Of a stretch of DNA of 11,289 bases, positions 1,425-11,289 are shown piece by piece. Position 1 is the stretch's first letter. Every line of letters starts with the position of its first letter. The notes under the pieces are model-generated. The model ran no database searches and was not told the DNA's origin. It saw only the letters and a program-made list of their open reading frames with translations. A program made the position numbers and the translations under genes. The DNA is from an uncultured Lachnospiraceae bacterium (GTDB taxonomy: Bacteria > Bacillota > Clostridia > Lachnospirales > Lachnospiraceae). The DNA lies in the NCBI GenBank assembly GCA_945827765.1, contig CALZPS010000030.1:1-11289 (forward strand). Direction: 5' to 3'.

Positions 1425-1555
1425 ACTATGGGAAACTCTTTCAGAATATCCCGTAGTGCGAAGATGTAATCTTTTTATAGAAACAAAAGAAACACCCTGA
1501 GGGTATTGCGATATGCCCGATAAGAGGGGCAATGAAGAGGAAAGGAAACAAACTC
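1425..1555 (+). other. Leader region of the por operon with several small hairpins
   Basis: This 131-base gap must hold the por promoter, but no convincing -35/-10 pair is visible; TATAGA at 1476-1481 is a weak -10 candidate. It contains ACTATGGGA (1425-1433) facing TCCCGTAGT (1449-1457), a nine-pair stem with one G-U pair. ACCC-TGA-GGGT (1494-1504) and TGCCC (1514-1518) facing GGGCA (1527-1531) are also present. The last hairpin would bury the GAGGGG in front of an in-frame ATG at 1532, which favours the downstream start at 1556. No known riboswitch class is recognised. Confidence 0.4.
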
Positions 1556-2128
1556 ATGAGTAACGTGACAGAAATCAGATGGCACGGCCGCGGCGGTCAG
1601 GGTGCCAAGACGGCCGCATTGCTTTTGGCGGATGTGGCATTTCAGACGGGCAAGTATGTACAGGGTTTCCCGGAGTACGGCCCGGAGCGTATGGGCGCAC
1701 CGATCACAGCATATAACCGAATCAGTGACACGCAGATTCGCGTACATTCCAATATTTATGATCCACAGTATGTCGTGGTAGTGGACGAGTCCCTTTTGGA
1801 GACGGTGGATGTGACCGCAGGTCTCAAAAAGGATGGAGCCATCCTCATTAATACGGCACGTCCGAAGGAAGAAATCATTCCGCACCTGAAAGGATACGAA
1901 GGTAAGGTTTACACGATTGACGCCAGAAAGGTATCCATGGCGACATTGGGAAAATATTTCCCGAATACCCCGCTTCTGGCGGCAATTGTAAAGGTGGCGG
2001 GCATCATGGACGAAGATAGGTTCCTGACCGAGATGAGAGGATCCTTTAACCACAAATTTGCCAGCAAGCCGGAGGTCATTGAAGGCAACATGGCGGCTCT
2101 TAAAATGGCATTTCAGGAGGTGCAGTGA
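1556..2128 (+). CDS. porG: Pyruvate (2-oxoacid):ferredoxin oxidoreductase, gamma subunit
   Basis: This 190-residue protein is the gamma subunit of a heterotetrameric 2-oxoacid:ferredoxin oxidoreductase. The complex converts pyruvate and coenzyme A to acetyl-CoA and CO2 and passes electrons to ferredoxin in the cytoplasm. The family signature HGRGGQGAKTAA is near the N-terminus (about residues 10-21), and FPEYGPERMGAPI follows at about 38-50. The length fits the family. An in-frame ATG at 1532 would add eight basic residues (MKRKGNKL). The start at 1556 is preferred because homologues typically begin just before the TEIRWHGRGGQG segment and AGGAAAGG lies a suitable distance upstream. It is the first gene of the operon and its TGA overlaps the porD ATG by one base. 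Substrate preference for pyruvate is inferred from the alpha subunit; related enzymes use branched-chain 2-oxoacids or 2-oxoglutarate. Confidence 0.93.
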   Translation: MSNVTEIRWHGRGGQGAKTAALLLADVAFQTGKYVQGFPEYGPERMGAPITAYNRISDTQIRVHSNIYDPQYVVVVDESLLETVDVTAGLKKDGAILINTARPKEEIIPHLKGYEGKVYTIDARKVSMATLGKYFPNTPLLAAIVKVAGIMDEDRFLTEMRGSFNHKFASKPEVIEGNMAALKMAFQEVQ

Positions 2129-2430
2129 TGGCGACAGATATCAGTAAATTAGGTGTAAAAGTAAAATGGCAGGATTTGACGGAAGGAATGATGATTGCCG
2201 GGGCGGGGACATCCAAAGAGTTTTTGACCGGTGAGTGGTCTTCCGTGAAACCGGAGATAGACTGGGAGAAATGTAAACAATGTCTTTTGTGTGCGCCGGT
2301 ATGCCCGGACAGTTGTATTCCGGTAGCGGACAAAAAACGTCTTGATTTTGATTATGACCATTGCAAAGGATGCGGCATCTGTGTGAAGGCATGTCCGTTC
2401 GGTGCGATTACGATGGAAGGGGTGAAGTAG
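2128..2430 (+). CDS. porD: Pyruvate:ferredoxin oxidoreductase, delta subunit (2x[4Fe-4S] ferredoxin-like)
   Basis: This is a 100-residue ferredoxin-like subunit that relays electrons from the catalytic core to external ferredoxin. Two classic [4Fe-4S] motifs are visible: CKQCLLCAPVCP with Cys49, 52, 55 and 59, and CKGCGICVKACP with Cys79, 82, 85 and 89. The N-terminal 45 residues (KVKWQDLTEGMMIAGAG) are typical of PorD. The ATG at 2128 overlaps the porG stop as TGATG and follows AGGAGG (2115-2120) by seven bases; a GTG one codon earlier is less likely. The overlap implies translational coupling with porG. The cysteine sets make the assignment very secure. Confidence 0.94.
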   Translation: MATDISKLGVKVKWQDLTEGMMIAGAGTSKEFLTGEWSSVKPEIDWEKCKQCLLCAPVCPDSCIPVADKKRLDFDYDHCKGCGICVKACPFGAITMEGVK

Positions 2431-2431
2431 G

Positions 2432-3613
2432 ATGAGCAAAAGAGAACGTTTATCAGGAAATGAGGCGGTGGCGATTGCCCTGCGTCAGATTAACCCGGAT
2501 GTATTTCCGGCATTCCCGATTACCCCGTCCACGGAGATTCCGCAGTATTTTGCCTCTTATGTGGCAAACGGACAGGTAGATACCGAGTTTATCCCGGTGG
2601 AGAGTGAGCATAGCTCTATGAGTGCGGCAATCGGCGCATCCGCTGCAGGTGCAAGAGCGCTGACCGCAACATCTTCCTGCGGACTGGCATACATGTGGGA
2701 GGAACTCTACATTGCGGCATCCAACAGACTGCCGCTGGCACTGGCGCTTGTAAACCGTGCGCTGTCCGGTCCGATTAATATCAACTGCGACCATTCCGAC
2801 AGTATGGGAGCCAGAGACGCGGGATGGATTCAGATTTATGCGGAGAATAATCAGGAGGCCTATGACAACATGGTTCAGGCTTACCGCATTGCCGAGCACC
2901 AGGACGTGCGTCTGCCCATCATGATTTGCCAGGACGGATTCATCACCAGCCATGCGGTAGAGAATATTGAATTGCTGGATGACGCAGATGTGAAAAATTT
3001 TGTTGGTGAGTATGAGCCGGAAACCTATCTTCTGAACCCGGACTGCCCGGCGGCGGTCGGTCCGTACTCCATTACGGATTACTATTTTGAGGCAAAACGA
3101 AATCAGGCGGAGGGCATGAAACATGTGCCTCAGGTGGTGCTGGATGTGGCGAAGGAATTTGCCGCAGTGTCCGGCAGAGAGTATGGTCTGTTTGAAGAAT
3201 ATTGCATGGAGGACGCCGACCGGGCGGTGGTCATCATCGGTTCGGCGGCGGGAACGACCAAGGATGCGATTGATGCGCTGCGCGAAAAAGGCGAGAAGGT
3301 CGGTATGATCAAGATTCGTCTTTACCGCCCGTTCCCGGCAGAGGAGATTGCCGACTCCCTGAAAAATGTGAAGGCGGTGGCCATTATGGACAGAGCGGAG
3401 AGCTACACCAATCACGGCGGTCCGCTGGGAGCAGATGTGATGGCAGCGCTGTTCCGCGCAAGGAGCAATGCATGGGCTGTCAATTATGTGTATGGTCTGG
3501 GCGGACGTGACGTGCGCGTGGAGGACATGGAGAATGTCTACGCAGACCTGCAGCAGATAATCGATGACAATGATGCGGGAGAGACTTACCGTTTCATGGG
3601 TATCAGAGAATAA
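2432..3613 (+). CDS. porA: Pyruvate:ferredoxin oxidoreductase, alpha subunit
   Basis: This 393-residue protein carries the pyrimidine-binding domain for thiamine diphosphate and the central transketolase-like domain. Visible family features are FPITPSTEI at about residues 28-36, the acidic VESEHSSMSAAIGAS segment at 56-70 with the expected TPP-activating glutamate, and GPININCDHSDSMGARDAGW at about 113-132. A C-terminal domain II (RLYRPFPAEEI, then DRAESYTNHGGPLG) follows. The CDHSDSMGARD segment resembles pyruvate-type alpha subunits more than 2-oxoglutarate or indolepyruvate types; this is recalled family knowledge, not an alignment. Only one base separates it from porD, and its GGTGAAGTAGG ribosome site overlaps the end of porD. 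Full length, with no odd residues noted. Confidence 0.94.
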   Translation: MSKRERLSGNEAVAIALRQINPDVFPAFPITPSTEIPQYFASYVANGQVDTEFIPVESEHSSMSAAIGASAAGARALTATSSCGLAYMWEELYIAASNRLPLALALVNRALSGPININCDHSDSMGARDAGWIQIYAENNQEAYDNMVQAYRIAEHQDVRLPIMICQDGFITSHAVENIELLDDADVKNFVGEYEPETYLLNPDCPAAVGPYSITDYYFEAKRNQAEGMKHVPQVVLDVAKEFAAVSGREYGLFEEYCMEDADRAVVIIGSAAGTTKDAIDALREKGEKVGMIKIRLYRPFPAEEIADSLKNVKAVAIMDRAESYTNHGGPLGADVMAALFRARSNAWAVNYVYGLGGRDVRVEDMENVYADLQQIIDDNDAGETYRFMGIRE

Positions 3614-3628
3614 GGAGGGACGTTTGAG

Positions 3629-4561
3629 ATGGCTTATAATTTTAAAGAGACAATGAACAAACCGGAACGTCTGGCTCCGGGACATAGAATGTGCGCCGGA
3701 TGCGGCGGGACGATTGCAGTAAGAAATGTGCTGCGCGGACTGCACGAGGGCGACAAGGCGGTTATCGGAAATGCGACGGGATGTCTGGAGGTGTCCACCT
3801 TTACTTACCCGTATACTTCATGGGAGGATTCCTACATTCACAATGCATTTGAAAATGCGGGCGCGACCATGAGCGGTGTGGAAGGCGCTTATAAAGCATT
3901 GAAGAAAAAAGGGAAAATCGATGAGACATACAAATTCATCACCTTCGGCGGCGACGGCGGTACCTACGATATCGGTATGCAGTCATTGTCGGGCGCGATG
4001 GAGCGTAACCATGATTTTGTGTATGTCTGCTATGACAACGGCGCTTACATGAACACTGGTATCCAGCGTTCTTCCGCGACTCCGATGTATGCGGACACAA
4101 CGACCACTCCGGTCGGCAGTGAGAGCAACGGAAAACCGCAGAACCGTAAGGATCTGGCAGCGGTCATCGCGGCACATGATGTGCCGTACGTGGCCCAGAC
4201 GACGTTCGTGCAGAATTTTAAAGACTTGCACATCAAGGCAGAGAAGGCAATCTATACTCCGGGCGCCGCACTGTTAAATATCATGGCTCCGTGTCCGCGC
4301 GGCTGGAGATACAACACTCCGGATATCATGGAAATCTGTAAACTGGGCGTGGAAACCTGTTACTGGCCGCTGTTTGAGGTCGTGGAAGGCAAGTGGATTT
4401 TAAACTACGAGCCGAAGAAGAAACTGCCGATTGAAGAATTTTTGAAACCGCAGGGCAGATTTAAGCATCTGTTTAAGCCGGAAAATGAATATCTGATCGA
4501 GGCGTTCCAGAAAGAAGTGGACAGACGGTGGGAAGAACTGCTGTTTAGATGTTCGAGATAA
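3629..4561 (+). CDS. porB: Pyruvate:ferredoxin oxidoreductase, beta subunit (TPP-binding)
   Basis: This 310-residue subunit binds the diphosphate end of thiamine diphosphate and the proximal [4Fe-4S] cluster. Cys22 and Cys25 (MCAGCGG), Cys52 (NATGCLEV) and Cys222 (APCPRGW) match the four cluster ligands known for the family. The TPP motif runs from GGDGG at residues 107-111 to the Asn at 137 (YDNGAYMNTG), the usual distance. The start follows AAGGAGGG (3612-3619), which directly abuts the porA stop, giving a 15-base gap. It is the last gene of the operon and a bidirectional terminator lies 23 bases downstream. Together with porG, porD and porA it makes a complete four-subunit enzyme. Confidence 0.95.
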   Translation: MAYNFKETMNKPERLAPGHRMCAGCGGTIAVRNVLRGLHEGDKAVIGNATGCLEVSTFTYPYTSWEDSYIHNAFENAGATMSGVEGAYKALKKKGKIDETYKFITFGGDGGTYDIGMQSLSGAMERNHDFVYVCYDNGAYMNTGIQRSSATPMYADTTTTPVGSESNGKPQNRKDLAAVIAAHDVPYVAQTTFVQNFKDLHIKAEKAIYTPGAALLNIMAPCPRGWRYNTPDIMEICKLGVETCYWPLFEVVEGKWILNYEPKKKLPIEEFLKPQGRFKHLFKPENEYLIEAFQKEVDRRWEELLFRCSR

Positions 4562-4584: not shown

Positions 4585-4618
4585 GAAAATAGGGGCTGCG
4601 GTGGCAGCCCCTATTTTC
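4585..4618. terminator. Bidirectional terminator shared by porB and the convergent immA-like gene
   Basis: A perfect 15-bp stem (4585-4599 with 4604-4618) closes a four-base loop. Its outer part is A/T-rich (AAAATA and TATTTT), so transcripts from both directions end in a GC-rich hairpin with a U-rich 3' side. It serves the rightward por operon and the leftward immA-like gene. The stop codon of the latter (4611-4613) lies inside the stem. Confidence 0.88.
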
Positions 4619-5075
4619 GTCCGATAGCCAGACATGGTTCAAAACAGATATAATAATCTTCGTATTCTGTATAAATTCCGTATTTCGCACGATAACATTC
4701 GATTGCCCTGCGCAGACATTCTTCTGTGACTCCCAGAAATTCGGCTACTTCATAGAGTTCCCTGCATCCATGCAGATATGCTTTCATCAGTCCCGACAGC
4801 CCGATCAGGCGGTTGTAAGACCATACACGTGCCTGATGTTCCTGCTTTGCATTGCCGAAATCAGAGGAATCGAGGATATTCCCTACAGTCGTGTAGTGAT
4901 GTCCGAGCTCTTCGGCGAGGACACAGGCTTTTTCCGCGGAAGTATCCAGACGGTCGGAAAGGGCAATATTTTGGTCAATATACAGCCCTTTCAGAGCACT
5001 TTTAAAATGATAATCCTCGTCAACGGAAATCTGTGCATTCGCCGCTTCATCCAACAATTCTTCATATTTAGTCAT
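4611..5075 (-). CDS. ImmA/IrrE family metallopeptidase-like protein
   Basis: This 154-residue protein resembles the ImmA/IrrE (COG2856-type) family, whose founding member cleaves the partner repressor ImmR and so induces the mobile element ICEBs1. The core KACVLAEELGHHYTTVGNIL spans about residues 49-68. The canonical HExxH appears as E55-E-L-G-H59, followed by H60, so the first zinc histidine is replaced by Glu. Downstream E79 and the RVWSYNRLIGLSG segment are further family-like features. I recall similar EELGH forms in Firmicute phage and element proteins, so this may be a subfamily trait rather than decay. It lies 20 bases after the XRE gene on the same strand and is probably co-transcribed. 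Its ribosome site is weak (AGAGG about 15 bases upstream). It ends in a shared terminator. Predicted role, by family and context: proteolysis or other inactivation of the adjacent repressor. Confidence 0.82.
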   Translation of the reverse strand: MTKYEELLDEAANAQISVDEDYHFKSALKGLYIDQNIALSDRLDTSAEKACVLAEELGHHYTTVGNILDSSDFGNAKQEHQARVWSYNRLIGLSGLMKAYLHGCRELYEVAEFLGVTEECLRRAIECYRAKYGIYTEYEDYYICFEPCLAIGRK

Positions 5076-5095: not shown

Positions 5096-5422
5096 CTATG
5101 ATTTCCGCTTAGAGCGGATAAATTTGATATAATCTGCCACATCTTCCAACTCGGCGTCGGTAAGTCCATAGGTATCCAGATGCGCCGCTATGGTAACCGG
5201 CGAAAAGTGTCCGGAGGAAGTCTCCTCCCGCCCCAGCAGATAATCCATGTCCACCTGAAAAATATCCGCTATCTTGCGGCAGGTGTCCAAATCCGGTTCC
5301 CGCCGTCCCTGCTCATACATGCTGATCGTGCTTTTTGAGACGCCGAGGCGCTGTGCCAGATCCGGCTGTGACCAGCCTCTCTCTTTTCGTAATGTTTTCA
5401 ATATGTCAGAAAATTCAGTCAT
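5096..5422 (-). CDS. XRE-family repressor, ImmR/phage-repressor type
   Basis: This 108-residue protein has an N-terminal XRE helix-turn-helix at about residues 7-61 (RKERGWSQPDLAQRLGVSKS, then TISMYEQGRREPDL and YLLG). A short helical C-terminal part ends in ELEDVADYIKFIRSKRKS, a tail common in small Firmicute repressors. GGAG lies ten bases upstream of the ATG. It is the first gene of a leftward pair with the immA-like gene, the ImmR-ImmA arrangement. It is divergent from the giant RHS gene, with 269 bases between the start codons. Three copies of a 15-bp near-palindrome in that gap are its likely binding sites, giving autorepression and repression of the RHS gene. The family is clear; the regulatory targets are inferred from layout. 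Confidence 0.9.
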   Translation of the reverse strand: MTEFSDILKTLRKERGWSQPDLAQRLGVSKSTISMYEQGRREPDLDTCRKIADIFQVDMDYLLGREETSSGHFSPVTIAAHLDTYGLTDAELEDVADYIKFIRSKRKS

Positions 5423-5506
5423 AACGCCACATCTCCATTCTTTTCATGAATGTTATTTACGGCTTTCTGCCGATAAATGTATTCGTTCGAATCATTCAAC
5501 AACTAT

Positions 5507-5535
5507 ATAATACACAAAATGTGTTCAAAAGTAAA
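5507..5535 (-). promoter_or_regulatory. Leftward promoter for the XRE repressor/immA-like pair
   Basis: On the minus strand TTTACT (complement of 5530-5535) and TATTAT (complement of 5507-5512) are separated by exactly 17 bases. The spacer contains operator copy 1 (5511-5525), so bound repressor would block it. The leader to the repressor ATG is about 80 bases and includes a perfect palindrome, ATTCG-TT-CGAAT, at 5481-5492. Confidence 0.55.
5511..5525. promoter_or_regulatory. Operator copy 1 (leftward promoter spacer)
   Basis: TACACAAAATGTGTT contains a perfect dyad ACACA-AAA-TGTGT at 5512-5524. It shares its core with copies 2 and 3, consensus TACACRAAAYGTGY. It sits between the -35 and -10 of the leftward promoter, which suits autorepression by the XRE protein. 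Confidence 0.65.
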
Positions 5536-5561
5536 GCGAATCGGAAAAAAATATAAAAAAA

Positions 5562-5576
5562 TACACGAAATGTGCT
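5562..5576. promoter_or_regulatory. Operator copy 2 (abuts -35 of the RHS promoter)
   Basis: TACACGAAATGTGCT matches copies 1 and 3 with two and two differences in the 15-bp unit. It touches the TTGACA -35 element starting at 5576, where a repressor would compete with RNA polymerase. Its centre is 51 bp from that of copy 1. Confidence 0.65.
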
Positions 5577-5604
5577 TGACAAGCAGAAGGCGAACGTGTA
5601 TTCT
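5576..5604 (+). promoter_or_regulatory. Rightward promoter of the giant RHS gene
   Basis: A consensus -35 TTGACA (5576-5581), a 17-base spacer and a -10 TATTCT (5599-5604) predict transcription start near 5611. The leader would be about 80 bases. Operator copy 2 abuts the -35 and copy 3 covers the predicted start. A lone half-site (ACGTGTA, 5594-5600) overlaps the -10. Confidence 0.7.
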
Positions 5605-5609
5605 TATAG

Positions 5610-5624
5610 TACACGAAACGTGCA
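5610..5624. promoter_or_regulatory. Operator copy 3 (over the RHS transcription start)
   Basis: TACACGAAACGTGCA has the dyad CACG-AAA-CGTG and differs from copy 2 at two positions. It covers the predicted start of the RHS transcript. Its centre is 48 bp from that of copy 2. Confidence 0.65.
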
Positions 5625-5658
5625 CGGAGTGTAAACACAAAACAGAAACATAGAGGCG

Positions 5659-5675
5659 GGAACGAAATTCGTTCC
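5659..5675. repeat. Perfect palindrome in the leader of the RHS gene
   Basis: GGAACGAA and TTCGTTCC are exact reverse complements around a single central A. It lies 16 bases before the ATG at 5692 and just before the AAGGA ribosome site (5683-5686). It could be a second operator or a short leader hairpin. Confidence 0.4.
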
Positions 5676-5691
5676 GGCGGAAAGGAAAAAA

Positions 5692-8600
5692 ATGAAAGAA
5701 CAGATTTTACAGGAAGTGAAGGAAAGAAGAGAACAATGCGTCAAGCACTTCCGGATGGCGCAGAAGGGAATGGCGGCAGCGGTATATCCGTCGCCGGTCC
5801 ATTATGAAAAAGACGGACAGTGGGAAGAAATCGATAACCGGCTCGAACCTGTCATGGAGGATGGAAGAGAGGTATACAAAAACCGGGCGTCCTCTTTGAA
5901 GGTTTGCTTTGCGGGAGAACTTGGGGAAGATTCACTGGTGACGGTGGAAAAAGACGGCAGGAAGGTGTCGTGGAGACTGGATACGCCGACACAGCCCGAG
6001 TCCGGTGCATCGGCACAGTTATCAGGTGGTTTGTCGGCGCAGCCTGCATACAGCATATCAACACAGCCTGTATACGGGGAGACAGCGGAAGACGTTTCAA
6101 ACGAATTGCGTACAGCGTCGGAAGAGAGCGCCAAGGTTTGCAGCGGCAAAAGAGGTTTTCAGGTTTTAGAAAAGTCAGAGTTCTGGAAAGATCCTGCGGT
6201 TTTGAGAGAAGAAAAAAATGCGGCAGCCAGAAGTGAAACGGTGGCAGCTGAAAGTGAAACGGCAGTAACTAGAAGTGAAACGGCAGTAACTAGAAGTGAA
6301 GACGCAGAAATTGGAAGTGAAACGGTAGTAACCGGGACTGACACGGCACAGAGCGCAGAAGGTTCGAACGGACAGTTGGACGTGGCCACGGTTCGTGAGA
6401 AAATGGGCGTGCCTCATCTGCTCAGCGAGGGAATGTACGAGGGCGTCCTCCCCGGAGTAGATCTTCATTATGCCCTTCACGGTGAGCGGATCAAAGAAAA
6501 TATCCGCATTCACACAAGGACAGCGGCACAGCAGCCGTTTGTATTCTCATTTTCCCATCCGGGAATGGAGATGCGCATGGAGGAAGACGGCAGCATGGGA
6601 CTGTATGCAAAAACGTCCGGCGAAAATACTGTGGATGTTCAGGACGATCACGAGGACCAGGAAGATCAGGAAACGTCAGGGCAGAGTGCGGAGCGCTGCT
6701 ATCGCTTCGCGAAACCTTATATGTACGATGCGGCGGGAAATTGTTCCGCAGACGTCGTATTTCGGCTGGAGCAGGGAAATAAAAGCAGCCGTGTGACCAT
6801 CGTGCCGGACATGGAGTGGCTGCTTAAAGAAGAACGGGAATACCCGGTGGTGATCGACCCGATGACGGAGACTGCCAAAACCCGCGCCAATATTGAAGAC
6901 ACTTATATTTTTACGGGCGGGACAAGCTCGGAAAATCCGGCGGAAGTATATGCATACGGTTCCGTCGCGGTAGGACAAAGCACGGAGCTGGGAAAATCAC
7001 GCGCGCTGCTGAAATTTAAAAATCTGCCGGATATCGGGAAAGGTTCCATCATTTATGCGGCGACTATGTACCTTTGGCAGTTCCAATATTCCACTTACGG
7101 GACATCTACAATTCCGCTGATGGCACATGAGATCACGGGCAATTGGGATGAAAGATCGGCGCGGTGGTCGAATCAGCCGTCCTTCGATGAAAATGTACTT
7201 GATTATAAGCAGGTCGGGCAGGTGGCGAACGGAAATACCATCACAATCACACCGATTGGTTTTGACGTCACAAGGCTGGTGCGCCAGTGGTACAATACCG
7301 GAAAAAACTATGGTATTATGGTACGTTCGCAGTACGAAGACACCACCACGCTTGCAAATCGCGCATACGCCAGATTCTATGCGTCGGATGCGCCGGATAT
7401 CTCGTCCGACCAGTTCCCGAGCGGCGTATTCTACTATCGTAATGTCGATGGACTGGAGGATTATCAGAGCTATCATGAGCAGCCGATGGGACGGGCAGGA
7501 ACCGGATACACAAACGATTATACGGGAAATGTGGTCTGGATCCATGCGGATGCAGAGACAGTCGGTGGACCGCTGCAGGCGCAGATTAAGCATGTATATA
7601 ATTCCAGCGAGGCGGCAACTGCGCGCAGGCTTGGCTATGGATGGAGGTTCAGTTTTGAACAGGAACTGAAAGAAAGCGGCATTGCAGATTATCCGTATGT
7701 TTATATTGACGAAGACCGGACGAAACATTATTTTTACAGAGATACCTCCGACGGAAATAAGCTGAAGGACGAGGACGGACTTGGACTGACGATCACGCAA
7801 ACCTCCGGTTCCGATTATGATCACTATCGCTGTATGGAGACAAAGGATAAGACCAAATATACATTTGCGCAGGATGGTTTTCTGAGGTTTATAGAAGATT
7901 TGGACGGCAATCAGATCGAGTACAAATATCTCTGGAACGACTGGGGAAATTATCTGAGCTATGTCACGGATCACAAGGGCGCGCGTATAGATGTTACATT
8001 TGCAGACGATGCGCTGAGAACCCGCATGTTGTCGGTAAAGGATATGGCGGGTCGGGTGATCCAGTATAGTTACGATTCTGCGGATAACCTGTCGCAGATC
8101 ACATATCCTGACGGGACAAAGACGAAGTTTACATATGATACGGGGCATCGCCTGCTGAGCGTGACGGCGCCGGACGGAACCTGTGTGAAATATGAATATG
8201 CAATGGATTTTCGCGTTCCCAGAGTCAGCAAGATTTCGCGGTACGGGGAGAATAATACGCCCGGACAGGAGCTGAAGATTTCATACGAAAACGGAAACAC
8301 GACCATATTTGAAGAACCGGGGCTGGATGGGGAACTTTCGCAGACCGCGGACAATAAAAAATCGATCTGGCATTTTGACAATATGGGACGTCCGACGGAT
8401 GTGCTGGAGTCGGACGGCTACGCGAACACATACAGTTACTACACGCAGGGAATGCAGAATCATAAGCTGGGGAAAGACGGGGCTACGCAGAAACCGGTGG
8501 AAAATTTTATTCGGAATCCGTTGTTTAGTCCGGCATTTCCGGATGAGTGGCGGAAACGGAACTGGACGAGCCAGACAGTGGAAAGCATAACCGGTTTTGT

Positions 8601-11289
8601 GAACGGCTACCATGGTCTGAAAGGCGTAGCGACTCAGAACACCCAGCCGACGGGAGCCAATACATTGCAGCAGGAAATGTTTGTCGTTCCGGGCACCTAT
8701 ACACTTTCGGCTTATGTAAAAACAGAAGGGATGAGTACACAGAATACACCCGCGGGGACTCAGCTGCTTGAAGGCGTCGGAAGAGGAGCGGCGCTTATGG
8801 TCAAAGCCTCCGATCAAATTGTTTGCTGCAGCCGGTACATTGATTACGCGACCGACACAAATGTAGACGACGGCTGGGAGCGCTTATCTGTGACATTCCA
8901 CCTGGATAGTTGGGCAATATTGACTTTGCACGCAGGACTTTTCCAGATGACCGGAACTGCATATATCAGCGGAATGCAAATGGAGCTTGGAACAGTGGCA
9001 AACCGCCTGAATCTGATCGATAACGGTCACTTTAGCCGGTGCGTAACCGGAGGTCCTGATAACTGGACATTCTTCACGACCGCGAGCGGCGACAAAACTG
9101 CCGAAGATCCGGAGAGGGGAAGATGTCTGTCGATGCAGGGCAGGATCGATGCCAATCAGGATTGTATGCAGGAGATGGAAATTTCAGGAAAGGAAGGCGA
9201 CACGTATTCATTCAGCAGTTGGGTAAAAGCAATCGGCATTCCCGGCAAAAACTTCGTGATCACCGCCCGTGTCATGCACACTGACGGCACGGATAAATGG
9301 CATGAGTTTGCCTGCAATCCGAATATCATCGGCTGGCAGTTTGTGTGCGGGACATTCCGCGCCGGAAAAGCTTACCAGCGCATACAGGTTTATTTGAGCT
9401 ACCATAATCAGGTGAACAAAGTGCTCTTTACGGACGTTCAGCTGGTGCGCGACGATGGGGAAAGCTACCAGTATGACAGCAAAGGAAATCTGACCAATGC
9501 AATCAGTGCAACAGAAAAGCAGCATTTTGTATCCGACAAGAACGGCAACCTGACACGAATGGGTAATATAAGTGGGACAGCATTTGAGTATGGATATAAT
9601 GATAAGAATCATTTGCTGCTGGCATCCAGTTCGGAGGGCGTGCGCTACCGTTTTGAGTATGACGCGAACGGTCAGCCGGTCAGTATGCATGCGGAGGGCG
9701 GCAGAAACCTCGGCGCGGTGATACCGGGCAGGACCTATTATATCCGTGAGAAATATTCCGGTAATTATCTGGATGTGCGAAACGGAGCAACCGCAAACTA
9801 TACGGTGATCCAGATGAAAGATTTCCATGGGAATGCATCGGAGAAATGGAAAGTAATCGACTGTAAGGACGGATATTTCCAGTTTGAGCCGGAAAATGCG
9901 CCGGGATCTCAATTGGATCTTGCATTCAATTCCGGTGAGGAAGGAGCTACAGTCCAGCTGCATCAGAAAAATACATCGGACGCCCAGAAATGGAAACTTC
10001 ACCCGAAGGAGGACGGAAGTTTCTGGATCAGCTGCAAAGGAACAGAAGATAAAAACGGCTTAACCAATGTTTTGAAGAGCACGGAGGATAATCAGGCGGT
10101 ACAGAGCTGTAAGCTTGTGGAGGGAAATCCGGCTCAGATGTGGTACTTTGAACCTGCTGATACCGGAAAAATCTCAGACGTTCCGACCGACGGAAAAACC
10201 TATCATATCCGAGTGCGCCATTCAGGACAATATCTGGATGTGGATCACAAACAAACGACGGCTGGAACCCGTGTGATGCAGCACTATTTCAACGGCGGCA
10301 TGAACCAGCAGTTCAGGCTGACGGCGGCAGACGAGACGTATTTCTGGCTGGAACCGGCTTACGCGCCGGGGATGGTGCTGGCAAAATCAGGAAAGAACGA
10401 CCGAAATCTGGATCTGCTGTCTTTAGAGACGAAACAGACAGGGGCGGCAAATCAGTTGTTCCGCTTTACGCCGGTCGAAACAGGAACGACAAAAGGATAT
10501 GCGATCATCTGTAAATCAGGAAACGCAGCGCTGGACGTTATCGATTATACGTATGCAGAGTCCGCCGATGTGATTCTGACAGCCTATGAAAGCGTACAGG
10601 TCAATAAATGGTGGATTCTGGAAGAGTGCAGCGACCGGCTGGAGACGCAGATGGAGTACACGACCGACGGCAGGCAGATTTCTAAGATTACGGACGCAAG
10701 AGGAAATTCGGTACGATATGAGTATGATGCCAGGAACCGGCTGATGACAAAAGCATTTGATGCAAAAGGGAAGGCTACAATTTATACCTACGACGCAAAC
10801 ATAGATCACCTGACAAACGTGAAAAAAACAGTAGGCAGTACGGACGTTGAGGTGAGCTACACTTATGTGAACGACCGCCTGAAAACGATCACGCACAACG
10901 GATTTAACTATACCTATGATTACGACAGCTATGGAAATCTGGAATCTGTCGCCGCAGCAGGGACAAAGCTGGAGACGATCACATACCGAAATCGTGACGG
11001 ACTTGTTGACCGTACAACTTATGCGACAGGCGAGGCAGTGCGAAACGAGTACGATGCGGAGGAACGTTTGAAGAGCCAGTATCTTGTGAAAGCGGACGGA
11101 ACGGAGGAGAAACTTTTCACCAATACATACGATAATTGCGGAAATGTCGTGGCACAACAAGACCATAAAAACGGCGTCACCCGAAACTGCCAGTACGATT
11201 TGATTGGCAGAACAATCGGGGAAGACGGTACGGACGGACTGCATCTGCGCACGGCATATGACGATAAGAACCGTGTGGAGGGTGTGACC
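5692..11289 (+). CDS. Giant WapA-like RHS/YD-repeat protein, probable polymorphic toxin (3' end outside window)
   Basis: The frame is open from the ATG at 5692 to the window edge: 1866 codons with no stop. An in-frame TAA at 5632 and AAGGA just upstream fix the start. Order by residue: a WapA-type opening (AAVYPSPVHYEKDGQWEEID, about 27-46); a low-complexity, repetitive linker (about 100-225); LSEGMYEGVLPGVDLHY (about 241-257); YPVVIDP (about 384); a DNRLRE domain (about 400-563, with NWDERSARWSNQP); RHS core entry (GRAGTGYTNDYTGN, about 600); YD repeats (about 675-930, e.g. GRVIQYSYDSADNL); two jelly-roll-like modules (about 938-1258); YD repeats (1260-1343); two ricin trefoils (1346-1645); then YD repeats to the end. 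Relatives such as Bacillus WapA form a shell that delivers a C-terminal toxin to neighbouring cells. No signal peptide is visible: the N-terminus is MKEQILQEVKERREQCVKHF. The toxin tip and immunity gene are not in view, so the toxin role is inferred. Expression is probably controlled by the divergent XRE/ImmA-like pair. Confidence 0.93.
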   Translation, partial: MKEQILQEVKERREQCVKHFRMAQKGMAAAVYPSPVHYEKDGQWEEIDNRLEPVMEDGREVYKNRASSLKVCFAGELGEDSLVTVEKDGRKVSWRLDTPTQPESGASAQLSGGLSAQPAYSISTQPVYGETAEDVSNELRTASEESAKVCSGKRGFQVLEKSEFWKDPAVLREEKNAAARSETVAAESETAVTRSETAVTRSEDAEIGSETVVTGTDTAQSAEGSNGQLDVATVREKMGVPHLLSEGMYEGVLPGVDLHYALHGERIKENIRIHTRTAAQQPFVFSFSHPGMEMRMEEDGSMGLYAKTSGENTVDVQDDHEDQEDQETSGQSAERCYRFAKPYMYDAAGNCSADVVFRLEQGNKSSRVTIVPDMEWLLKEEREYPVVIDPMTETAKTRANIEDTYIFTGGTSSENPAEVYAYGSVAVGQSTELGKSRALLKFKNLPDIGKGSIIYAATMYLWQFQYSTYGTSTIPLMAHEITGNWDERSARWSNQPSFDENVLDYKQVGQVANGNTITITPIGFDVTRLVRQWYNTGKNYGIMVRSQYEDTTTLANRAYARFYASDAPDISSDQFPSGVFYYRNVDGLEDYQSYHEQPMGRAGTGYTNDYTGNVVWIHADAETVGGPLQAQIKHVYNSSEAATARRLGYGWRFSFEQELKESGIADYPYVYIDEDRTKHYFYRDTSDGNKLKDEDGLGLTITQTSGSDYDHYRCMETKDKTKYTFAQDGFLRFIEDLDGNQIEYKYLWNDWGNYLSYVTDHKGARIDVTFADDALRTRMLSVKDMAGRVIQYSYDSADNLSQITYPDGTKTKFTYDTGHRLLSVTAPDGTCVKYEYAMDFRVPRVSKISRYGENNTPGQELKISYENGNTTIFEEPGLDGELSQTADNKKSIWHFDNMGRPTDVLESDGYANTYSYYTQGMQNHKLGKDGATQKPVENFIRNPLFSPAFPDEWRKRNWTSQTVESITGFVNGYHGLKGVATQNTQPTGANTLQQEMFVVPGTYTLSAYVKTEGMSTQNTPAGTQLLEGVGRGAALMVKASDQIVCCSRYIDYATDTNVDDGWERLSVTFHLDSWAILTLHAGLFQMTGTAYISGMQMELGTVANRLNLIDNGHFSRCVTGGPDNWTFFTTASGDKTAEDPERGRCLSMQGRIDANQDCMQEMEISGKEGDTYSFSSWVKAIGIPGKNFVITARVMHTDGTDKWHEFACNPNIIGWQFVCGTFRAGKAYQRIQVYLSYHNQVNKVLFTDVQLVRDDGESYQYDSKGNLTNAISATEKQHFVSDKNGNLTRMGNISGTAFEYGYNDKNHLLLASSSEGVRYRFEYDANGQPVSMHAEGGRNLGAVIPGRTYYIREKYSGNYLDVRNGATANYTVIQMKDFHGNASEKWKVIDCKDGYFQFEPENAPGSQLDLAFNSGEEGATVQLHQKNTSDAQKWKLHPKEDGSFWISCKGTEDKNGLTNVLKSTEDNQAVQSCKLVEGNPAQMWYFEPADTGKISDVPTDGKTYHIRVRHSGQYLDVDHKQTTAGTRVMQHYFNGGMNQQFRLTAADETYFWLEPAYAPGMVLAKSGKNDRNLDLLSLETKQTGAANQLFRFTPVETGTTKGYAIICKSGNAALDVIDYTYAESADVILTAYESVQVNKWWILEECSDRLETQMEYTTDGRQISKITDARGNSVRYEYDARNRLMTKAFDAKGKATIYTYDANIDHLTNVKKTVGSTDVEVSYTYVNDRLKTITHNGFNYTYDYDSYGNLESVAAAGTKLETITYRNRDGLVDRTTYATGEAVRNEYDAEERLKSQYLVKADGTEEKLFTNTYDNCGNVVAQQDHKNGVTRNCQYDLIGRTIGEDGTDGLHLRTAYDDKNRVEGVT
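6229..6354 (+). repeat. Six 21-bp tandem repeats encoding heptapeptides in the RHS linker
   Basis: Six 21-bp units (starts 6229, 6250, 6271, 6292, 6313, 6334) encode a degenerate heptapeptide, consensus RSETAVT, at residues 180-221. Units 2 and 3 differ at a single codon (GAA/AGA); units 1, 4 and 5 are diverged and unit 6 is weak. The unit length keeps the frame, so gain or loss of copies changes only linker length. A shorter octapeptide pair (SAQPAYSI, STQPVYGE) lies upstream at 6034-6081. Confidence 0.85.
8503..9468 (+). other. Two jelly-roll-like (carbohydrate-binding-module-like) segments in the RHS protein
   Basis: Two segments of about 160 residues interrupt the YD repeats. They open with similar phrases, NFIRNPLFSPAFPDEW (residue 938) and NLIDNGHFSRCVTGGPDNW (residue 1107). 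Both then carry a strand resembling YTLSAYVKTEG or YSFSSWVKAIG, and end near a phrase like YISGMQMELG or VLFTDVQLVRD. This pattern is typical of CBM-like beta-sandwich modules of surface proteins. Family assignment is by eye; ligand unknown. Confidence 0.6.
9727..10626 (+). other. Tandem ricin-type beta-trefoil lectin domains in the RHS protein
   Basis: Two related blocks begin TYYIREKYSGNYLDV (residue 1346) and TYHIRVRHSGQYLDV (about 1503). Each has three QxW/F-like motifs: EKW (W1386), QKW (W1434), QMW (W1484), then QQF (F1541), QLF (F1590), NKW (W1640). The spacing of about 48-50 residues inside each block is the three-fold repeat of a ricin B lectin. They likely bind glycans or another surface ligand. 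Confidence 0.85.

Follow-up and report, generated by a model that had tools for sequence, protein, structure and literature searches.

The window, by which we mean the whole stretch of DNA analysed here, is one entire contig of 11,289 bases from a genome assembly of 1.8 Mb that is 69% complete. A divergent promoter region (5422-5692) lies between a gene for an XRE-family repressor and a giant RHS gene; an M78-family gene stands immediately 3' of the XRE gene on the same strand, after a gap of 20 bp. The features on which the analysis is built are the following, in order of position:

4611..5075, minus strand: M78 (ImmA/IrrE/DUF955) protease, 154 aa, MpaR-like (Peptidase_M78 2.2e-7, above its cut-off; PHROG metallo-protease 2.5e-35)
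4899..4913, minus strand: EELGH, M78 residues 55-59, replacing HExxH (from the sequence)
5096..5422, minus strand: XRE repressor, 108 aa, ImmR/CI-like (HTH_3 1.3e-20)
5174..5194, minus strand: TIAAHLD, repressor residues 77-83, with a predicted cut at A80/H81 (by analogy with MpaR cleavage of TIAAHID)
5507..5535, minus strand: leftward promoter-like hexamers TTTACT/TATTAT, 17 bp spacer (9 of 12 matches, consensus only)
5511..5524, no strand: operator-like site 1, TACACAAAATGTGT, inside the spacer of the leftward promoter, in contact with the -10 (counterparts in L014-L016 and L072)
5562..5575, no strand: operator-like site 2, TACACGAAATGTGC, abutting the rightward -35
5576..5604, plus strand: rightward promoter-like hexamers TTGACA/TATTCT, 17 bp spacer (10 of 12 matches, consensus only)
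5610..5623, no strand: operator-like site 3, TACACGAAACGTGC, at about the predicted rightward start site
5692..11289, plus strand: giant RHS gene, signal-less, 1866 aa read, running off the contig end (profile matches and hydrophobicity)

The RHS protein carries CBM96/DNRLRE, DUF6531, RHS repeats (PF05593, 1.9e-29), CBM_4_9 and ricin-type lectin domains, and its N-terminus has no signal-like hydrophobic segment (the best 14-residue mean within the first 119 aa is 0.74). Because the contig stops within the RHS gene, the toxin tip and the immunity and lysis genes are outside the view in the window; a sequence-only reading of this DNA had spoken of an RHS toxin-like gene, with the correction that a toxin domain is not visible in the window. 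No other contig of the assembly has an RHS repeat. The RHS leader is predicted to fold more stably than shuffled sequence (-17.8 kcal/mol for the stretch 5611-5710, z -2.7), and a hairpin with the stem GGAACGA..TCGTTCC (5656-5678, plus strand) lies in it just 5' of the ribosome-binding region; the search against Rfam returned no match at gathering scores. Elsewhere in the window, the stretches 287-1306 and 1532-4561 hold a second XRE gene with a long membrane-like C-terminus (HTH_3 2e-19) and genes that presumably resemble a 2-oxoacid:ferredoxin oxidoreductase. No integrative element was recognised from the ORF list of this 11.3-kb contig, of which four proteins were scanned.

Operator-like sites at the divergent promoters

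The sequence-only reading had described three near-palindromes of 15 bp; they are real and lie where it placed them, with the correction that each has 14 letters as written and is better rendered as CAC-N5-GTG. All three are exact matches of its consensus and share the core CACRAAAYGTG, and their start-to-start distances of 51 and 48 bp agree with the spacing it gave. A hexamer scan likewise puts site 1 within the leftward spacer, site 2 next to the rightward -35 and site 3 at about the rightward start, in a stretch where nine promoter-like hexamer pairs were found against 2.0 expected; the predicted rightward start is about 80 bp 5' of the first RHS codon.

A consensus search alone proves little, because the consensus was derived from these very sites and, with up to three mismatches allowed, the window has eight matches against 5.0 by chance (eight were reached in 27 of 200 shuffles). 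We also used an outside weight matrix, made from 13 sites chosen by eye at four other loci (L014, L015, L016, L072), and this matrix ranks the three sites first, second and third in the window (16.4-16.6; next 12.0); in 300 resampled windows with the same neighbour frequencies, positions that good occurred 0.03 times on average and at most once. The pattern ACACNAAAYGTG is found five times in the genome, three of them in this stretch, and a reversed control pattern four times, so that it is the clustering that is unusual and not the count; the remaining two copies fall within long ORFs of other contigs. A candidate fourth site within the spacer of the rightward promoter (AAGGCGAACGTGTA), picked by eye after L015 and L016, was rejected, no start within 5576-5602 scoring above -6 with the outside matrix. 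The window has no LexA-type box GAACNNNNGTTC.

The closest XRE-M78 pairs are those of genomes G159, G096 and G394, with repressors 51-54% and proteases 58-59% identical to those of the window. By eye, all three have similar motifs at the same landmarks together with one more copy in the spacer of the rightward promoter, the motifs of G159 being more worn than those of G096 and G394, and no RHS match was found near these pairs in the 19-kb stretches fetched. The pairs of G096 and G394 adjoin small or unrelated genes. In G159 (L092), the pair with its four similar sites adjoins a phage-tail-like cluster (tail tube 9e-19), possibly a tailocin. The nearest relative of the RHS protein (53% identical over 702 aa) is that of G243, where the divergent order of the window is kept, save for an additional 109-aa gene ahead of the RHS gene, and where the promoters are ringed by four sites (CACGAATTGTG, CACGTTTTGTG, CACAAAACGTG, CACAGAATGTG); within the genus of G243, the RHS N-terminus occurs in one of eight genomes, namely G243 itself. 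Since the sites are present both at the nearest repressors without RHS and at G243, they belong to the repressor module. The proposed operators are thus conserved in relatives, with the amendment that they travel with the repressor, also where RHS is absent. As to the expectation that orthologous loci with the same gene order would keep the repeat, G243 does, and no repeated operator was found at the promoter of the second RHS copy of Coprococcus catus.

The pairing of site and repressor was examined on 35 XRE-M78 pairs, left from 50 after removal of duplicates. Upstream of the repressor, two or more CACNAANNGTG sites are present in five of the seven cases with the helix S[KR]SxxxM[YW]E and in none of the 28 others (Fisher 6.5e-5). 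G243 is counted here as a miss, with one site, the upstream stretch having been taken from a too-early ORF start; the locus has four. L185 is a plain exception, with this helix and no CACNAANNGTG sites. A different helix, VAKSTYSLYE, goes together with TTGCAAAATGCAA-like sites at L017, L021, L032 and L039, which are absent at L008 although its repressor has this helix, and the Robinsoniella repressor has five TGAATAAAAATCA-like sites. The comparison hence favours the earlier proposal of one repressor that would act on shared operators of two promoters, the pattern in relatives following the recognition helix.

The repressor and its EExxH protease

By sequence, the best solved relative of the repressor is an Xre-family regulator of ICEBs1 (7t8i, 3.3e-10), which we take to be ImmR; the repressor of the window also shares 42% identity over 97 aa with that of Listeria phage HB17054, where the motif reads LLAAHID. 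An ImmR/ImmA-type pair had been proposed for this locus. Its two members are indeed an XRE and an M78 protein; the partner is an EExxH protein resembling MpaR and not an HExxH ImmA. E55, E56, G58 and H59 are invariant across a 16-row M78 alignment. ICEBs1 ImmA has HExxH. An HExxH motif is likewise described for the ImmA homologue of Streptococcus mutans in the accessible text of PMC10233336. MpaR of the Listeria monocin element has EELMH and is reported to cleave CI-like repressors, more so under mitomycin C; a His-to-Ala change abolishes the cleavage, and mass spectrometry mapped the cut between A74 and H75 of TIAAHID (PMC6872733, accessible part). Because MpaR cleaves with EELMH, the EELGH protein of the window need not be a dead enzyme.

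Repressor tail and protease type change together. Among the fetched loci, AAH is found in the repressor tail of 31 of 31 EExxH pairs versus none of four other pairs, and in viral contigs in 64 of 72 EExxH-family pairs (58 of 65 distinct tails) versus none of 30 distinct HExxH pairs; these are not counts of independent events, because related sequences are compared and similarity to the M78 protein of the window was the criterion for gathering the EExxH set. The viral EExxH set comprised 80 loci (L217-L296), eight of them with no repressor found, and the HExxH set 62 loci (L297-L358). The eight phage EExxH-family pairs (of 72) without AAH have AAN, AAQ, AAR or ALH instead, and many tails of HExxH pairs share an (I/V)ARNGK-like motif. 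In G243, an HELGH protease and an IAR-type tail have been swapped in, the DNA-binding half and the operators being kept. At the level of sequence, the comparison shows the DNA-binding helix going with the operator and the C-terminal tail with the protease type, as would be expected of a modular switch. The suggestion that the partner is an anti-repressor protease gains support from these EExxH pairs with AAH tails and from the MpaR precedent, and we file the switch of the window, on its sequence features, as a putative member of the MpaR-type repressor-protease family.

RHS cargo and neighbouring genes in relatives

Relatives of the RHS N-terminus include proteins of Dorea, Coprococcus, Fusicatenibacter and Robinsoniella, which would place the window in the Lachnospiraceae. 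A genome scan with this N-terminus kept 80 of 85 loci, the window and G243 being outside this set; a second family-level draw brought up mostly the same genomes again. A signal-like hydrophobic stretch is present at 67 of the 80 scanned loci and absent at 13, among which the starts of L152, L159 and L163 are poorly resolved. When only genes with at least 1.5 kb upstream are considered, a divergent XRE-M78 pair stands beside three of 12 signal-less RHS genes versus none of 63 signal-bearing ones (Fisher 0.003). Altogether, the divergent pair with a signal-less RHS gene is found at five loci in five genomes: the window, G243, Fusicatenibacter saccharivorans (G129), C. catus copy 2 (G036) and Robinsoniella sp. 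SUG377. Over the alignable parts, identity to the repressor of the window is 27-51% for the repressors of the other four loci, and the regulators are partly unrelated (27% over 62 aa between window and G129). Signal-less RHS genes with no neighbouring XRE-M78 pair are those of G037, G221 (2.6 kb seen), C. catus copy 1, Dorea sp. SUG81, L145 and L168. No occurrence of the RHS N-terminus was confirmed among nine pattern matches in viral contigs, and none of eight plasmid records reached 80% query coverage.

Some of these neighbourhoods have peculiarities of their own. In Dorea sp. SUG81 (L104, 1-1960), whose RHS N-terminus is 65% identical to that of the window, what reads as a broken transposase-like ORF pair occupies the position of the repressor pair, and one partial site (GGCACAAAACGTTATG as reverse complement) remains before the RHS gene. 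At L146 (3083-4444), neighbouring genes for an M78 protein with HExxH and a LexA-like protein are found 2-3 kb before an RHS gene that does bear a signal, and a third gene, likewise regulator-like, stands in between; this locus was excluded from the pair count because it has no XRE match. G734, another Eubacteriales genome, has signal-less RHS genes after small phage-like genes (L392, L393), where no XRE-M78 pair was seen on reading.

Three of the five pair-bearing loci have holin genes within the same run of genes, two of them with endolysins as well. In Robinsoniella, three genes lie between the operators and the RHS gene: a holin (Holin_SPP1, 7e-23), an endolysin (Amidase_3, 6.7e-17) and a small gene of a PHROG of unknown function, which we presume to be XhlA-like. 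In G129, the RHS gene is followed by a candidate immunity gene, then a holin (4.1e-33) and an Amidase_2 gene (2.9e-19), and in G243 holin genes (one scanned, 5.2e-33) are found repeatedly, along with RHS tips and candidate immunity genes. The repeat units downstream of the G243 RHS gene (L360, L364), three copies of which were seen, one of them short, are broken by transposase-like genes. Downstream of C. catus copy 1 lie a holin (2.6e-20) and an Amidase_3 gene (7.5e-20), but this copy has no XRE-M78 pair alongside. The candidate immunity genes owe this name solely to their position; those scanned gave no family match, and the three RHS tips scanned in relatives no toxin family match.

Reading of the gene lists revealed no lysis genes at G037 (6 kb downstream) or Dorea (16.8 kb), and there are none between the promoter and the RHS gene of the window; the sequences of the window, C. 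catus copy 2 and G221 end too early for a view of downstream lysis genes. As a control, Pfam was run on 77 genes that follow 14 signal-bearing RHS genes on the same strand (15 stretches examined, one without usable genes), and no holin or amidase family was among the matches listed, which cover 25 of 56 families, single-member ones down to 1.6e-14; the holins and endolysins counted as positives are all stronger than that value. A phmmer search with six lysis proteins had missed the C. catus copy 1 pair and hence does not serve as a control. The genome of the window has no match to Phage_holin_4_1, which is weak evidence against lysis genes, because about 31% of this 69%-complete genome is missing and this was the sole holin family searched. 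The lysis genes beside some RHS relatives suggest a stress-triggered, lysis-released weapon rather than an ordinary secreted one.

A proposed damage-responsive switch and its known counterparts

From the sites, gene order, motifs, conservation and helix-operator pairing described above, we infer the following scheme of repressor binding, cleavage, signal, toxin activity and lysis release. The XRE protein would bind the three CACRAAAYGTG sites and repress both its own gene and the RHS gene from the two divergent promoters. A stress signal, most likely DNA damage, would activate its operon partner, the MpaR-type M78 protein, which is predicted to cut the repressor at TIAA/HLD (A80/H81), between its DNA-binding and C-terminal parts; both promoters would then open and the RHS protein be made. 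The XRE-M78 operon would be co-induced, which may amplify the response until the signal ends. The RHS protein would accumulate in the cytosol and, judging from the relatives, may possibly exit by lysis. That the locus is a repressor/protease switch on shared operators we regard as highly likely from comparison of the sequences, its RHS product being probably, by analogy with the relatives, a toxin released at lysis. More tentatively, the signal-less RHS proteins of gut Lachnospiraceae might be colicin-like giant bacteriocins, made only when the repressor is cut after damage and freed not by secretion but by the holin and endolysin that belong to the same element; the regulator pair would then have been exchanged several times, the cargo remaining constant. 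For giant signal-less RHS proteins of Gram-positive cells, these loci suggest a testable exit route in gut commensals, namely damage-triggered expression plus lysis; the locus also yields an exact cleavage prediction.

Other explanations of the same genes have to be weighed. The XRE-M78 pair could be a prophage leftover that regulates itself only, the RHS gene merely adjoining an old early promoter, and this would fit both the M78 relatives in 250 phage records and the near relatives of the pair that stand without RHS (G096, G394) or by a phage-tail cluster (G159). We nevertheless consider it distinctly unlikely: the same layout is found at five loci whose pairs are in part unrelated and at none of the 63 signal-bearing RHS genes, and the side towards the RHS gene has a -35, a -10 and two operators of its own, the predicted start falling about 80 bp before the first RHS codon. 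Loss of catalysis in the M78 protein, with release through another anti-repressor or RecA, is suggested by the first metal-binding His of HExxH being Glu in all 16 aligned members, a branch for which our sequence search found no solved structure. It is very unlikely in view of MpaR, which cleaves in vivo with EELMH and loses this activity upon the His-to-Ala change (PMC6872733, accessible part), and of the joint change of repressor tail motif and protease type.

Alternatively, the RHS protein could be an abortive-infection effector acting inside the producer, like CBASS under CapH-CapP, and no weapon against neighbours. The repressor does match the capH model (4.3e-15), the M78 proteins of G129 and G243 match capP (9.1e-19 and 1.8e-12), and immune operons are gated by CapH-CapP (PMC13373217, accessible part); however, the M78 protein of the window has no capP match, and some relatives have RHS tips, candidate immunity genes and holins or endolysins, the make-up of an intercellular weapon, which renders this reading unlikely. 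Highly improbable, finally, is a toxin-antitoxin module or Rosmerta-like defence unconnected with the RHS gene. Among the phage homologues, some bear the annotation of a TA-system toxin, and the XRE protein matches the N-terminal part of RmrA models, yet these models span 357-400 positions with HTH and M78 in one chain, whereas separate genes are found here; moreover, the M78 protein of the window matches none of the PADLOC families, and an ImmRA pair of S. mutans did not act as a toxin-antitoxin system, as stated in the accessible text of PMC10233336.

The switch of shared operators, repressor and protease that we favour has several known counterparts. The closest is the CI-like/MpaR pair of the Listeria monocin, with which the window shares an XRE repressor followed by an EExxH M78 gene, a TIAAH[IL]D motif and divergent promoters; the monocin is a resident, non-excising killing element, which the locus resembles in this respect, and is SOS-induced and released by lysis. 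Its cargo is a phage-tail-like bacteriocin with holin and endolysin, whereas that of the window is a giant RHS protein (PMC6872733, accessible part). ImmR-ImmA of ICEBs1 has the same gene order and logic, with repeated operators at divergent promoters (recognised here from sequence alone), but controls an integrative element, none of which was recognised in the window, and the ImmR-ImmA type is defined by HExxH, in whose place the window has EELGH. CapH-CapP resembles the window in the capH-matching repressor and in gating a potentially lethal operon; it controls adjacent immune operons, and the cargo here is not one of these, nor does the M78 protein match capP. Together with CapW/BrxR, CapH-CapP is described as controlling BREX, Pycsar, CBASS, DISARM and Bub operons (PMC13373217, PMC10233336, accessible parts). 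Rosmerta shares XRE and M78 parts; its one-chain architecture is not found here, where only the HTH part matches.

On the side of the cargo, WapA-type RHS toxins of Firmicutes have the same RHS repeats, DNRLRE/CBM96 and DUF6531 and, in the relatives, variable C-terminal tips; the RHS protein of the window differs in the lack of a signal-like segment, which 67 of the 80 related loci have, and in the adjoining regulator pair. Bcn-A of Xanthomonas perforans is an RHS-family bacteriocin with an immunity gene, but it is Gram-negative and supernatant-borne, its authors link it to secretion, and the accessible part of the report describes no XRE-M78 switch or lysis cassette (PMC7259588). Neither 'holin' nor 'DUF955' occurs in the first 300,000 characters of the 2012 survey of polymorphic toxins (PMC3482391), and by title and abstract opening no paper on an RHS gene under such a switch was found among the matches listed, a search that left subscription papers and preprints outside. 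That such pairs gate chromosomal killing systems is already published (Listeria monocin/MpaR; CapH-CapP). Of the novelty that the sequence-only reading had seen in a switch gating a chromosomal toxin, there remains the RHS cargo, which we did not find in the literature among those matches. The best reading is thus a switch of a known kind, new in part only, in which the signal-less RHS cargo is the unusual element.
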